A stretch of DNA of 50,831 nucleotides, from positions 1-50,831 of the forward strand of contig JAHBWG010000072.1 in the NCBI GenBank assembly GCA_019637095.1. Reading direction: 5' to 3'. This DNA is from Sandaracinaceae bacterium. Its GTDB lineage: Bacteria; Myxococcota_A; Polyangia; Polyangiales; Sandaracinaceae. Shown here one piece after another: positions 17,028 to 25,122 of the stretch; within the stretch, counting starts at the first letter, position 1, and every line of letters begins with the position of its first letter. The notes below the pieces were generated by a model. The model did no database searches and had not been told where the DNA came from. It worked only from the letters and a program-made list of their open reading frames with translations. The position numbers and the translations under genes were made by a program.

Positions 17028-18947
17028 ATGGGTGAACGGGCAGTGCCGATCCAGGCCTCGGGCGAGACCCCGCTCGGGCCCAAGCTCCCCCTCCGCCTCG
17101 GCCGCTTCACGCTGTGCGCCGAGCTCGGGGCGGGCGGCATGGCGACGGTCTACCTCTCGCGCATGCAGCTCGCGGCCGGCCTCGAGCGGCTCGTCGCGCT
17201 CAAGACGATCCACCCGCACCTCGCGAAGGAGCGGGCGTTCATCGACATGTTCCTCGACGAGGCGCGCATCGCCTCGCACGTGACGCACCCGAACGTGTGC
17301 TCGACGCACGACTTCGGCGAGGTCGACGGCGTCTACTACCTCGCGATGGAGTACCTGCTCGGCGAGCCGGTCTTCGACGTGATCAACCGGCTCGTCGAGC
17401 GCTTCGACGACGTGCGCGAGGTGCTGCCGTACCTCGCGGCGCGCATCGTCGCCGACGCGTGCGAGGGCCTGCACGCCGCGCACGTCGCGCGCGGGCCCGA
17501 CGGCGAGCAGCTCCACATCGTCCACCGCGACGTGTCTCCGCAGAACCTCTTCCTCACGTACGAAGGGTCGGTGAAGGTCGTCGACTTCGGGTGCGCGAAG
17601 GCGGCCGAGCGCGTCGCGCACACCTCGACCGGGGTCGTGAAGGGCAAGGTCGGCTACGCGGCGCCCGAGCAGATCAAGGGGCGTGCGTGCGACGCGCGCG
17701 CGGACGTGTGGGCCCTGGGCGTGGTGCTCTGGGAGACGCTGACGCTGAGCCCGCTCTTCACGCGCGAGACGGCGGTCTCGACGGCGATGGCGGTGCTCGA
17801 TGACGAGATCGAGCTCGCCTCCGACGGGCGCGACTGGGTGCCGCGGGAGGTCGCCGAGATCGCGCAGAAGGCGCTCAGCCGCGACGTCGCGGGCCGCTAC
17901 CAGAGCGCGCGCGATCTCGGGCGCGTGCTCCGCAAGTTCATCGCCGACAGCGGCTACACGCTCGAGTCGGCCGAGCTCGCCGAGTGGATGGACTTCCTCT
18001 TCGAGGAGCAGAAGAGCGCGCGCATCGAGGAGGCGCGCCGCGTCCGCGAGATGGACGTGTCCGCCGTCGCGACGGCGCGGCTGCGGGAGGTCACGGAGGC
18101 GGACGTCGAGTCGCTCGGGCCGGCGGAGCGCACCGAAGCCGTCGTGCTGCCGGACGACGCCGACGACGACGAGGTCGCGGTGCCGGAGGTGTCCGGGCCG
18201 ATGCCGCGGCAGCGCCGCGCGCTCCACGTCGCCGAGCCGACGCCGCTGCCCGTCGCGCCGCGGAGCCACCTCGGGCGCTGGCTCGCGCTGATCGTGCTGC
18301 TCCTCGGGCTCGCGGCGGGCGGCTACTACCTGCACCTGCACTACGAGATGGCGCCGTGGTTCCTCGATCTGATCGGGCGCGACGCGCCGAGCCCGGGCGA
18401 CGGCGAGGCGGCCGAGGGAAGCGAGCGCGCGGGCCGGCGAGGCCGCGGGGATCGCGCCGCGCGGACCGGCGACGAGCGCGCGGGCCCCGAGGCGCCGGCG
18501 CCCGACGCGGTCGCGGATCCCGCGAGCGCGCCGAGCCCATCGACCGAGGCCCCCACACCCGCCGCGGTCGCCGAGGGTCCGACCGAGCCCGCGCCTCCGG
18601 AGGCGCCCGCTCCCGCGCCGCGACGGCGGAGCAGCAGCGGCGCCGGCGTCGTGACGACGGTGATCTCGGGCGGCGGGACGACGTACGTCACCGAGCCGCC
18701 GCCAGCGCCGGTCGCGCCGCGCGCGTCGACGGGTCGGCTCTCCATCCGCACGACGTCGGGCTGGGCGGAGATCTACCTCGATGGCCGCAGCCTCGGCCGC
18801 ACCCCGATCGATCGCGAGGTCCCCGAGGGGACGCACCGCATCCGCGTGCTGCCCTACGGCCGCGCGGACGGCGCCGAGACGATGGTCGTCGACGTGAGCG
18901 CCGCGGCCGTCGAGCGCATCACCCTCGACGTCGACGCGTCCCCCTGA
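17028..18947 (+). CDS. Transmembrane serine/threonine protein kinase with PEGA domain
   Basis: A 639-residue eukaryotic-type kinase. The kinase domain (26-300) has the glycine loop GAGGMATV (34-41), Lys59 in VALKT, HRDVSPQN (166-173) and DFG (186-188). Ser replaces the Lys of the usual HRDLKPxN, as is common in myxobacteria, so activity is expected. One membrane segment follows (about 415-435, WLALIVLLLGLAAGG). The periplasmic part is an Ala/Pro/Glu linker ending in a PEGA domain (EIYLDGRSLGRTPI). The juxtamembrane piece has AERTEAVVLPDDADDDEV, loosely like the motif repeated in the nearby pseudokinase. Confidence 0.92.
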   Translation: MGERAVPIQASGETPLGPKLPLRLGRFTLCAELGAGGMATVYLSRMQLAAGLERLVALKTIHPHLAKERAFIDMFLDEARIASHVTHPNVCSTHDFGEVDGVYYLAMEYLLGEPVFDVINRLVERFDDVREVLPYLAARIVADACEGLHAAHVARGPDGEQLHIVHRDVSPQNLFLTYEGSVKVVDFGCAKAAERVAHTSTGVVKGKVGYAAPEQIKGRACDARADVWALGVVLWETLTLSPLFTRETAVSTAMAVLDDEIELASDGRDWVPREVAEIAQKALSRDVAGRYQSARDLGRVLRKFIADSGYTLESAELAEWMDFLFEEQKSARIEEARRVREMDVSAVATARLREVTEADVESLGPAERTEAVVLPDDADDDEVAVPEVSGPMPRQRRALHVAEPTPLPVAPRSHLGRWLALIVLLLGLAAGGYYLHLHYEMAPWFLDLIGRDAPSPGDGEAAEGSERAGRRGRGDRAARTGDERAGPEAPAPDAVADPASAPSPSTEAPTPAAVAEGPTEPAPPEAPAPAPRRRSSSGAGVVTTVISGGGTTYVTEPPPAPVAPRASTGRLSIRTTSGWAEIYLDGRSLGRTPIDREVPEGTHRIRVLPYGRADGAETMVVDVSAAAVERITLDVDASP

Positions 18948-19451: not shown

Positions 19452-19946
19452 TCAGCGCTTCTTGCCGCCGCGCTTGGCGCCACCGCCGCCACCCGCGCTC
19501 GCGGGGTAGTAGCGGGTGTGGCTCTTGACGCCGTCCTTGTAGACGTCGCCCGACGCGATCAGCTTGCTGAGCGGACGGGTCATCTCGCGCGTGGCCATCC
19601 CGAGGACGCCGCCGAGCTCGAGGGCGGTCTTGCCGGGGTTCGCGGCCACGTACTCGCGCAGGACCTCGAGGTCCCTGATCATCTGCTCGCTGGTGCGGCG
19701 CGTCCCCTTCGGACGCGGCTTGCGCTTACCACCGGCCGCGGGGGCCGCTGCCGCCTTGGGCGCCGCGGGGGCCGCCGCCTTGGGCGCCGCCGCCTTGGGC
19801 GCCGCCGCCTTCACCGCCGCGACCTGCATCCCGGCGCTGCGGAACGCCTGGTCGATGGCCTCGTGCGCGGCCTCGCCGATGAGGGCCCGAAGGTCCTTGG
19901 TGAAAGCCCTGACTCGCTCTTCGATACGTGCGTCGATGTCGCTCAT
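19452..19946 (-). CDS. Histone H1-like DNA-binding protein with PKAAA linker
   Basis: A 164-residue basic protein. A short acidic coiled coil (3-38) leads into a lysine/alanine/proline linker (46-80) with repeats of APKAA like the C-terminal tail of histone H1. A winged-helix-like domain follows (84-148, SEQMIRDLEVLREYVAANPG, then YYPA), and the protein ends in GGGGGAKRGGKKR. I infer a nucleoid-associated protein that binds DNA through the winged helix and neutralises charge with the tails. The ATG at 19946 is preferred over one 18 bases upstream because MSDIDARIEE starts the helix. Confidence 0.82.
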   Translation of the reverse strand: MSDIDARIEERVRAFTKDLRALIGEAAHEAIDQAFRSAGMQVAAVKAAAPKAAAPKAAAPAAPKAAAAPAAGGKRKPRPKGTRRTSEQMIRDLEVLREYVAANPGKTALELGGVLGMATREMTRPLSKLIASGDVYKDGVKSHTRYYPASAGGGGGAKRGGKKR

Positions 19947-20025
19947 GGGTCGCAACCATGGCACGGCCTAGGCACGCTCGTCGAGCCCTATCGTACATTT
20001 GGGTTAATTCTCGACCCGGGATCTC

Positions 20026-20084: not shown

Positions 20085-21518
20085 TCACTCCTCTTCGTCG
20101 TCGTCCTCGGGCTCGTCGAGCCGCAGCCGCGCGACCTCGGATTCGTCGAGGAACTCGGTCTTCGCGGTCGAGAGCCCCATCGGCCTGCGCAGCGCGGGTG
20201 GGCTAGGGGGCTCGACGGTCAGCCGATCGACCTCGCCCTCGTCGAGGAACTCGGTCTTCGCCGCGCCGAGCCCGACGGGCCTTCGCGGCTCGGTCACGGT
20301 GAGGCGATCGACCTCGCCCGCATCGAGGAACTCGGTCTTCGCGGGCGCGAGCCCCGCGGGCTTGCGCCTGCCGAGCACGAGCGGCAGCGCGATCGACTCG
20401 TCGTCGGCGAGCCCGCGCCCCGGCAGCGGCGGCGGCGCGGTCGCTTCGATCGTCTCGTCCGTCTCGCCGCCCGGAGCGTCGTCGGGGATCGGCCGCACCG
20501 ACTCGAGCCGCGTGAGCTCCGACTCTGCGACGTGCATCGTACGCTCGGAGGGAAGCCCCACCGGGCGCTTCGCGCTCGTCGGCTCGGCGCCGGCCATGCG
20601 CGCGACGGTCGCGGCGAGCGCGGCGGGCCCTGGTCCCGTCTTCGCGAAGCGCGGCGCGCGCCCGCGCGCGGCGCGGACGGCGCGTCCGAGCGCGGCGGCG
20701 TCGACGGGCGTCTGCTCGGCGTGCAGCAGGCGCTCGAGCGCGCGCGCCATCTCGTCCGCCGACTCGAACCGATCGCCGGGCTCGGGGCGCAGCGCGCGCT
20801 CGACGAGCGAGACGAGGAGCGACGGAAGGTCCTTGCGCAGCGCGCCGAGGTCGCGTGGCTCGGCGAGCGCGTCGTCGTGGAACGCGGGCACGCCGGCGAG
20901 CGCCGCGAACGCGAGCGCCCCGACGCCGAAGACGTCCGTCGCGGGCGTCGCGCCGCGCCCTTCGAGCAGCTCGGGAGCCGCGTGCCAGAGGCCCGCCTCG
21001 ACCGCGTCCGCGCGCCCCTCGCCGGTCGCGGCGAGCGCGGCCGCGACGCCCGCGCGGGTGATCTTGACGGCGCCATCGATCGACAAGCGGACGGCGCGCG
21101 CGCCGACGCCGCGATGCACGTACGGAGGCTCGATCGTATGCAGCCGGTGCAGCCCGTCGCACAGGCCGACGAGCGCGCGCGTCACGAGCGTCCACGGCGC
21201 GTGCTCGTACGTGGCGACGAAGTGCTCGAGCGACAGTCCGTCGATCCACTCGGCGACGTAGAGCACGCGATCGCCGTCGAGCACGAGGTCGATGGGCTCT
21301 TCGAGGTGCGGGCTCGGCCGCGCGGCGATCCCGGTCGCGACGGCGGCGAAGGTCCCGACGAAGCGCGCGTCCTTCGCGTAGCGCGGCGCGAGCACGCGGA
21401 TCGCAACGGGGCGTGAGAAGCCGGCGCCGCCGTCGAGCCGGCCTTCGTGGAGTGTCGCGATCGGGCCGTCGGTGACGCGCCGACCGATCGTGTAGCGAGC
21501 TCCGTCGAAGGTTCCCAC
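20085..21518 (-). CDS. Serine/threonine pseudokinase with four repeated TEFLD-type motifs
   Basis: A 477-residue protein with a kinase-like fold (about 8-275) lacking every catalytic residue: VAIRVL puts Arg41 where Lys is needed, the loop reads HRGVGARAV instead of HRDxxxxN, and DFG is TRAG (154-157). ATP phosphotransfer is therefore not expected; it should act as a scaffold. The C-terminal third carries three near-identical units at about 389, 416 and 448, each RxPxGLxxAKTEFLD followed by xxEVxRL. A fourth, degenerate unit near 321 (GLPSERTMHVAESELTRL) aligns without gaps. GTG at 21518 is preferred because a TATACT box (21527-21532) lies just upstream; GTG at 21569 is the alternative. Confidence 0.85.
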   Translation of the reverse strand: MGTFDGARYTIGRRVTDGPIATLHEGRLDGGAGFSRPVAIRVLAPRYAKDARFVGTFAAVATGIAARPSPHLEEPIDLVLDGDRVLYVAEWIDGLSLEHFVATYEHAPWTLVTRALVGLCDGLHRLHTIEPPYVHRGVGARAVRLSIDGAVKITRAGVAAALAATGEGRADAVEAGLWHAAPELLEGRGATPATDVFGVGALAFAALAGVPAFHDDALAEPRDLGALRKDLPSLLVSLVERALRPEPGDRFESADEMARALERLLHAEQTPVDAAALGRAVRAARGRAPRFAKTGPGPAALAATVARMAGAEPTSAKRPVGLPSERTMHVAESELTRLESVRPIPDDAPGGETDETIEATAPPPLPGRGLADDESIALPLVLGRRKPAGLAPAKTEFLDAGEVDRLTVTEPRRPVGLGAAKTEFLDEGEVDRLTVEPPSPPALRRPMGLSTAKTEFLDESEVARLRLDEPEDDDEEE

Positions 21519-21589
21519 GGCGAGGGAGTATACGCGCCCCGTGCGGCCTTCGCGCACGGAGACGGTCACGCGTTTGATATGGTTCGCGC

Positions 21590-22549
21590 GTGCCGAAGCT
21601 GCCTCGCGCGCTCCTGGGTCTCTTCGTCGTCGCCTGCTCCGGCAGCGCGCCGCCGCCCGCGCCGGCGCCCGCGACGTCGGTCGTCGAGCAGGCGCAGCGC
21701 GAGGACGAGGCCGAGGACGAGGTGGCGGCGTACGCCGACGTCGAGGACGAGGCGCCCGACGGCGCCGCGTGCGATCACGGCTCCGATTGCGCCGCGGGCG
21801 AGCACTGCCGCGGGCCGGCGGGCTGCAACGCGTCGTGGGCGTGCGGGCCGGCGCGCGAGTGCGGTGAGGAGCGCGTCGGCTGGTGTGGCTGCGATGGCTT
21901 CACGTTCTACGCGCCGACGAACTGCCCCGGGCGCCCGTATGCGCACGCGGGGCCGTGCGCGGCCCTGGGCGAGCTCGACGAGGAGCCGCCCGAGGAGGTC
22001 GAAGGCAACACCGTCTGCCAGTCGAGCGACGACTGCCCGAGCGGCTTCGTCTGCGCCGGCAGCGAGGGCTGCTCGACGCTCTGGACGTGCGTGCGCCGCA
22101 CGCGCGTGCGGCCTCGGTGTACGCGCGAGGTCGCGGCGTTCTGCTCGTGCGATGGGGACAGCTTCGAGGGCGCGCGCACGTGCCCGGGGCGCCCGTACCT
22201 GCACCGCGGCTACTGCGACGGTGACGAGCCGACCGACGTCGCCACCGCCGACGCGACCGCCGACGCGGGCGTGGTGGCGCGAGACACCGGCGTCGCGCCG
22301 CCGCGCCGCCCGGACGAGGGCGAGGGGCCGCGCGTCTGCGTGCGCGACCGCGACTGCCCGCGCGGTCTCATCTGCACCGGGACCGAGGGGTGCACGTCCG
22401 ACTGGTACTGCGCGCGCCCGCGGCAGCGCTGCATCGCCGACACGCAGTACTTCTGCTCGTGCGGCGGCGAGACGTTCACCGCGTCGATGACGTGCCCTGG
22501 TCGGCCGCACCGTCACCGCGGCGCGTGCACCCCCGACGAGCGCCGTTGA
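21590..22549 (+). CDS. Lipoprotein with three ten-cysteine repeats
   Basis: A 319-residue lipoprotein (lipobox VVAC, Cys16). An acidic spacer precedes three tandem repeats of about 63 residues, each with ten cysteines and the pattern C-x5-C-x5-C, then WxC, FCxCDG and CPGRPYxHxGxC. The FCxCDGxTF part resembles the C-terminal half of Kazal-type inhibitors, but no full Kazal domain is present. Repeats are separated by Glu- or Asp/Ala-rich linkers. Presumably a disulfide-rich surface protein, perhaps a protease inhibitor or binder. GTG at 21590 lies 20 bases from the longer start option of the divergent pseudokinase, and the leader is very short. Confidence 0.85.
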   Translation: MPKLPRALLGLFVVACSGSAPPPAPAPATSVVEQAQREDEAEDEVAAYADVEDEAPDGAACDHGSDCAAGEHCRGPAGCNASWACGPARECGEERVGWCGCDGFTFYAPTNCPGRPYAHAGPCAALGELDEEPPEEVEGNTVCQSSDDCPSGFVCAGSEGCSTLWTCVRRTRVRPRCTREVAAFCSCDGDSFEGARTCPGRPYLHRGYCDGDEPTDVATADATADAGVVARDTGVAPPRRPDEGEGPRVCVRDRDCPRGLICTGTEGCTSDWYCARPRQRCIADTQYFCSCGGETFTASMTCPGRPHRHRGACTPDERR

Positions 22550-24435: not shown

Positions 24436-25122
24436 ATGACCCACTTCCGCCACGCCCTCGTCTCGACCGCGCTCGTCGTGCTCGCGCTCTCCGCCACCGG
24501 CTGCGCGGGCGGGGCCGCGTGGGGCGGCGCGCTCGCCGCGTTGCTGAGCCTCTCGCTCCTCTTCGCGGCCGGCTGCAACCAGTCGCACTCGGCCGGTGAC
24601 GACGCGGGCACCGTCGCTCGCGACGGCGGGGGGGCCGACGGCTCCGCCGACGCGGGCGGGTACTGGGAGCGGTGCTGCGTCGACGGGCGCATCGACTCGT
24701 GCTTCTGCCCCGGCGGCCACGCCTGCAACTACGGCTGGTTCACCGACTGCGGCGGTGGGACCTGCAGCTTCGGGCCCGAGGGTTGCGGCGACGCGGGCAT
24801 GCCCGATGGCGGCGGCACGTGGGAGCCGTGCTGCAACGACGGCGTGATCGACGTGTGCTTCTGCCCCGCCGACGCCGAGTGCAACTACGGCTGGTACACG
24901 GACTGTGGGGACGGCACGTGCGCCTACGAGGCCGGCGCGTGCGCCGACGGCGGCGTCGCCACCGACGCGGGCACGCCGGACGGCACGTGGGAGCCGTGCT
25001 GCAACGACGGCGTCATCGAATCGTGCTTCTGCCCCGCGGGGGTGGCCTGCAACTACGGCTGGTACACGGACTGCGGCGGCGGCACCTGCGTCGGCCCGGT
25101 CGAGACCTGCCCGGCGCCCTGA
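24436..25122 (+). CDS. Cysteine-rich surface protein with three CNYGW repeats
   Basis: A 228-residue exported protein. Three tandem repeats of about 42 residues share CCxDGxIxxCFCP, CNYGWxTDCGxGTC and a final Cys, eight cysteines each. The N-terminus has two lipobox-like ends, ATGC (Cys23) and AAGC (Cys47), separated by a second hydrophobic stretch; which one is processed is unclear. An Asp/Gly linker follows. No named domain is recognised. It ends 2 bases before the ferritin-like gene, so the two are probably co-transcribed from the sigma-54-like element upstream. Confidence 0.82.
   Translation: MTHFRHALVSTALVVLALSATGCAGGAAWGGALAALLSLSLLFAAGCNQSHSAGDDAGTVARDGGGADGSADAGGYWERCCVDGRIDSCFCPGGHACNYGWFTDCGGGTCSFGPEGCGDAGMPDGGGTWEPCCNDGVIDVCFCPADAECNYGWYTDCGDGTCAYEAGACADGGVATDAGTPDGTWEPCCNDGVIESCFCPAGVACNYGWYTDCGGGTCVGPVETCPAP

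Follow-up and report, generated by a model that had tools for sequence, protein, structure and literature searches.

Ser/Thr kinases and FHA proteins are both very numerous in myxobacteria, and few of the links between them are known. Among the systems that can be compared with the locus described here, MviN is a pseudokinase fused to a lipid flippase. In the MviN (Rv3910)–PknB–FhaA system of M. tuberculosis, MviN is a dead Hanks-type kinase that depends on an active transmembrane kinase, and its C-terminal tail is a phospho-acceptor, being phosphorylated by PknB and recruiting the FHA protein FhaA (PMC12599244). The juxtamembrane domains of StkP and PknB have several Thr sites in a flexible linker and are proposed as docking sites, that of PknB binding FhaA (PMC12077195); both kinases are active, and no tandem repetition of a single motif is described for their sites. 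The nearest catalytic relatives of the protein studied here (~30–37%) are active soluble kinases of the same subfamily and order (e.g., L002, L005, and L029), some of which end in IPLTRKK and some of which have a TExLD stretch in the tail. They differ in being catalytically intact and in lacking the GL-x4-T frame described below, and their TExLD likeness fails a profile test.

The locus lies in a 50,831-nucleotide stretch of Sandaracinaceae DNA (the window, that is, the whole stretch analysed), and encodes a soluble pseudokinase with a repeated Thr motif in its tail (Table 1). Orthologues have three or four copies of this motif, as putative phospho-sites, whereas no tandem motif is described for MviN in PMC12599244. 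Furthermore, a MurJ/MviN flippase domain is absent from the N-terminus of the protein, which begins with the kinase domain. The pseudokinase is probably a multi-site docking platform in signalling. A clade-specific, conserved Thr motif on a dead kinase, together with one active kinase, would make a compact case of kinase, scaffold, and reader; if true, it would extend the MviN–FhaA example to a multivalent form.

Table 1. Features of the pseudokinase locus, in window coordinates.
Feature	Position	Strand	Remark
Pseudokinase gene	20085..21518	-	possible earlier start 21569
Catalytically dead Hanks-type kinase domain	20670..21512	-	residues 20-300 counted from 21569
Conserved helix GPAALAATVARM	20589..20627	-	immediately precedes unit 0
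Unit 0, conserved RTMxV subtype, KRPVGLPSERTMHVAESELTRL	20502..20570	-	
ESIALPLVLGRR segment	20367..20402	-	like C-terminal IPLTRKK ends of active relatives
Unit 1, RKPAGLAPAKTEFLDAGEVDRLTV	20295..20366	-	
Unit 2, RRPVGLGAAKTEFLDEGEVDRLTV	20214..20285	-	
Unit 3, RRPMGLSTAKTEFLDESEVARLR	20121..20189	-	
Intact transmembrane PEGA-domain Ser/Thr kinase	17028..18947	+	convergent neighbour, kept in 4/4 pseudokinase genomes
Small gene, weak HTH match	19452..19964	-	between PEGA kinase and pseudokinase

The reading frame at 20085–21518 proved to be a real gene, read on the minus strand from a GTG at 21518; the earlier note had the same ends and gave no strand. An alternative GTG start lies upstream, at 21569. 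The N-termini of the orthologues fall near the 21518 GTG, in agreement with the start in that note.

Pfam recognizes a Pkinase domain (PF00069) in the protein (5.4e-10; 39.5 bits vs. a curated cut-off of 31.7). Alignment with 37 active relatives bears out the catalytic losses first read from the sequence (Lys to Arg41, HRD to HRG, DFG lost). The VAIK Lys is replaced by Arg (VAVK to VAIR; Arg41 counted from 21518, Arg58 from 21569), the HRDxxxxN segment reads HRGVGARA, so that both the HRD Asp and the catalytic Asn are gone, and DFG is RAG; thus, the VAIK Lys, HRD Asp, and DFG Asp of active Ser/Thr kinases are here Arg, Gly, and Arg, respectively. The alpha-C Glu is also gone, the glycine loop is degraded, and APE and the F-helix Asp, which are structural, are retained. 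The catalytic residues are gone in 5/5 aligned pseudokinases of the clade, with Arg in place of the DFG Asp in each. A structure model was built on a 42-sequence alignment, an earlier four-sequence model being too poor for use. The model has pLDDT mostly >90 in the kinase core and mostly <50 in the tail, and among PDB structures it is closest to PknA (TM 0.81, normalised by target) and PknI. Judged by alignment and model together, the protein is a pseudokinase, having a kinase fold without the catalytic motifs that is conserved in the orthologues, and it is predicted to consist of a folded kinase domain and a disordered tail.

The tail contains three TEFLD units and a gap-free fourth unit, exactly as the earlier note gave them. 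Compared with itself without gaps, the tail reaches a score of 89, whereas 100 shuffled versions never exceeded 45. Scored against each of the other three, the fourth copy has a mean of 44; among 300 shuffled proteins, no best 22-mer scored above 33. The units are 72–81% alike in nucleotides with many third-position differences, which rule out a recent DNA duplication as their source. The copies share the frame GL-x4-T-x2-[LVI]-x4-[LV]-x2-L, the +3 class of which was widened to I after sister pseudokinase L113 (see below) had been seen, a small post hoc step. Five positions are invariant in 11/11 aligned copies (P-8, G-6, L-5, Thr, and L+11); in the same copies +3 is always L or V, and +1 and +2 vary. 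The central Thr, reported beforehand for all copies in the window, is thus invariant in the homologues as well. The fourth copy (unit 0) had been called degenerate; because the RTM-x-V copy is present in orthologues, it is instead a conserved second subtype and not a product of decay.

Orthologues of the pseudokinase were found by whole-genome search in three other genomes of the family (G002, G005, and G008), at 44–48% identity; a search of the genome contigs gave remote kinases only. The G002 orthologue has four copies (KIPVGLPEDRTMAVSVSELQEL, KRPEGLAPARTEFLDDLQVDQL, KAPTGLGAARTEFLDDSQVDRL, and KAPTGLAPARTEFLDEDEVDRL), and those of G005 and G008 have three (GLSAQRTMHVDAEELSEL, GLTPAKTEFLDEDQVDAL, and GLSPAKTEFLDEDQVDSL). 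Between orthologues, identity is 55–68% in the units, 45% in the kinase domain, and 36–39% in the linkers. A helix with the pattern GPAALAA[TS]-x3-M (20589–20627) stands directly before unit 0 and occurs in all pseudokinase orthologues.

Within the window, the frame matches the four copies only, and among the 706 reading frames fetched it matches every copy of the clade and nothing else. A motif profile gives E <1e-9 in these orthologues only (184 order genomes, 318 class genomes); no convincing match occurs elsewhere in the 318 class genomes, all others having E of 0.001 or worse. Three of the weak matches (L096, L097, and L099; E 0.001–0.02) look like chance and were rejected, and another, L098, is a kinase linker. 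Likewise, the exact AKTEFLD-coding pattern is confined to these orthologues within the family. The earlier note had conceded that the motif might be absent from homologues or amount to generic low complexity; it is conserved in homologues, with an invariant Thr, and is clade-specific. Its suggestion that the motif might cluster in FHA proteins found no counterpart, as the profile detected no copy in FHA proteins and placed the motif only in the pseudokinase clade across the 318 class genomes. An encapsulin targeting peptide, considered for its RLTV likeness, was rejected, there being no PF04454 match in the genome (~96% complete).

A general TExLD tail motif in the active subfamily was also considered and rejected: a hand-made pattern matched 6/24 tails in the source set and 2/26 held-out tails (P 0.063), and active-subfamily tails showed no overall signal when scanned with a profile of the pseudokinase copies (combined P 0.35). 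The TExLD likeness is therefore suggestive only, and we claim no ancestral tail. A C-terminus of the form [S/A]-I-P-L-T-R-K-K is conserved in many active relatives (L026, L029, L027, L124, and L117), and the pseudokinase has an IPLTRKK-like version internally (20367–20402), just ahead of the TEFLD units. In a different, active PEGA-type kinase (L193 in G034, L190 in G023, and partly L192 in G029), the juxtamembrane linker contains four acidic Thr motifs that are conserved: DEPTxFFD, DExTAFFDG, xEKTEFLADDEL or AERTEYLGADAL, and EDATHIFFNK. Repeats of the type Thr-x-x-[F/L] in kinase linkers seem to have arisen more than once.

The genome of the window also has a sister pseudokinase, the paralogue L003, with counterparts in two of the other genomes, G005 and G008 (L113 and L116); all three are dead kinases that have lost catalytic residues in similar fashion. 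Each has at its end a single cognate copy of the motif, GLSADATDQLDLTDLQRL or GLKQESTDQINLEELGTL, in the same frame; the chance of a frame match at these C-termini is about 2 to 5e-5 per tail. In a maximum-likelihood tree, the two pseudokinase types form one clade with support of 100/100, to be taken with some caution because of the long pseudokinase branches. The sister type differs in having a single copy, at the extreme C-terminus, and other genomic neighbours. The simplest history is that the ancestor probably had one C-terminal copy, which was amplified later in the branch of the window.

We consider it quite possible, and adopt as a tentative reading, that the protein is a non-catalytic scaffold, the Thr residues of which are phosphorylated in trans by the adjacent kinase and read by an FHA protein in a multivalent manner; phosphorylation, the identities of kinase and reader, FHA reading, and multivalency are what we infer. 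The dead kinase domain of the soluble protein would serve as a binding module, and the disordered tail would display the three or four copies, each as an extended Thr segment and then a short helix. Phosphorylation of the invariant Thr in trans would fall most plausibly to the neighbouring transmembrane PEGA kinase; the phospho-Thr with its hydrophobic +3 would then be read by one of many FHA-domain proteins, yielding a multivalent, signal-dependent platform. The genome has 68 FHA matches, none of them in the window, and no single FHA reader stands out among these. In M. tuberculosis, the Thr sites that depend on PknA are enriched in hydrophobic residues (Leu, Val) at +3 (PMC7164672), and a hydrophobic +3 can also be accommodated by FHA domains (PMC4037201). 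The constantly hydrophobic +3 of the units, beside a variable +1 and +2, agrees with what a bacterial kinase prefers and with what FHA domains tolerate. MviN–PknB–FhaA offers a precedent for such an arrangement. Against a phospho-platform, the partner PEGA kinase lacks the motif, and PknA-dependent sites are enriched in acidic residues before the Thr, which the units here do not have. The earlier note had already proposed a platform for docking or phosphorylation; the disorder of the tail and the conserved active-kinase neighbour fit that proposal, whereas the related stretch that it saw in the neighbouring kinase is not conserved, and no copy of the motif turned up in FHA proteins.

It is also possible, with more doubt attached, that the units are phosphorylation-independent docking peptides, amphipathic segments (a GL anchor, TEFLD, and a short helix with V+8 and L+11) that would bind a folded partner, with the Thr having a structural role such as a helix N-cap before the acidic segment. 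Every copy has hydrophobic residues at -5, +3, +8, and +11, a short helix follows the Thr segment in both structure models (after the Thr of units 1 and 3 in the 42-sequence model), and TEFLD leads into D/E and then the helix. The GL at -6/-5 and the hydrophobic residues at +8/+11 exceed a usual FHA or kinase site, a pattern which suggests that the units may really function as a longer docking peptide. However, Ser, Asp, and Asn, the usual alternative N-caps, never replace Thr in any copy seen.

The pseudokinase adjoins, convergently, an intact transmembrane PEGA kinase in 4/4 genomes. The PEGA kinase orthologues in G005 and G008 have 69% identity, or 72% over 454 residues; that of G002 is cut by the contig end, and its best match is the window kinase (17028–18947). 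In G005, the ends of the two genes are 14 bases apart, and the small gene that lies between them in the window (19452..19964) was not found at this position in the other genomes. Among family genomes, PEGA kinase orthologues were found solely alongside the pseudokinase: the six without a pseudokinase have no clear orthologue, and at best 45–51% paralogues. This co-occurrence comes from only four genomes, all in one family, and may reflect no more than their common descent. The AERTEAVV...DDEV stretch of the active kinase, previously singled out as loosely similar to the repeats, is present there and is not kept in the orthologues of that kinase, and was rejected as a related motif.

A kinase neighbour conserved in this way would also suit a pseudosubstrate or allosteric regulator, in which the tail motif would bind the dead domain in cis, or the cleft of the neighbouring kinase in trans, and inhibit or activate it. 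We regard this as unlikely. The TxxL resembles a kinase substrate site, and the block of the last unit has a mean pLDDT of ~67, higher than most of the tail (<50), but no contact can be read from the structure model, and inhibition in cis needs no multiple copies with unequal linkers.

It is very improbable that the protein is just a paralogue in decay whose repetitive tail means nothing: it has a long branch, has lost catalysis, and sits in a genome with many kinase paralogues (83 kinase matches), but the tail motif is better conserved than the kinase domain, copies are kept in 4/4 orthologues, and dN/dS between two close genomes is 0.24 (five changes only).

The scaffold reading can be taken further, in a form that we find rather doubtful: amplification of a C-terminal motif would have produced a multivalent array of phospho-Thr sites in tandem, its two conserved subtypes (TEFLD and RTMxV) possibly having different readers, under the control of a dedicated convergent transmembrane kinase; the result would be a bacterial multi-site phospho-scaffold.

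The divergent neighbour of the pseudokinase (21590–22549) is lipoprotein-like and Cys-rich; this gene contains three similar repeats, has no match in Pfam, and has relatives ~7 kb or less from the pseudokinase orthologues of G002 and G005. In G005 and G008 (L092:5273-8044 and L093), a divergent gene upstream of the PEGA kinase encodes a small protein with peptidoglycan-binding domains. Additionally, the sequence WEPCCNDGVIxxCFCPxxxxCNYGWYTDCGxGTC occurs three times, almost unchanged, in the reading frame at 24436–25122, which encodes a Cys-rich repeat protein of secreted type.
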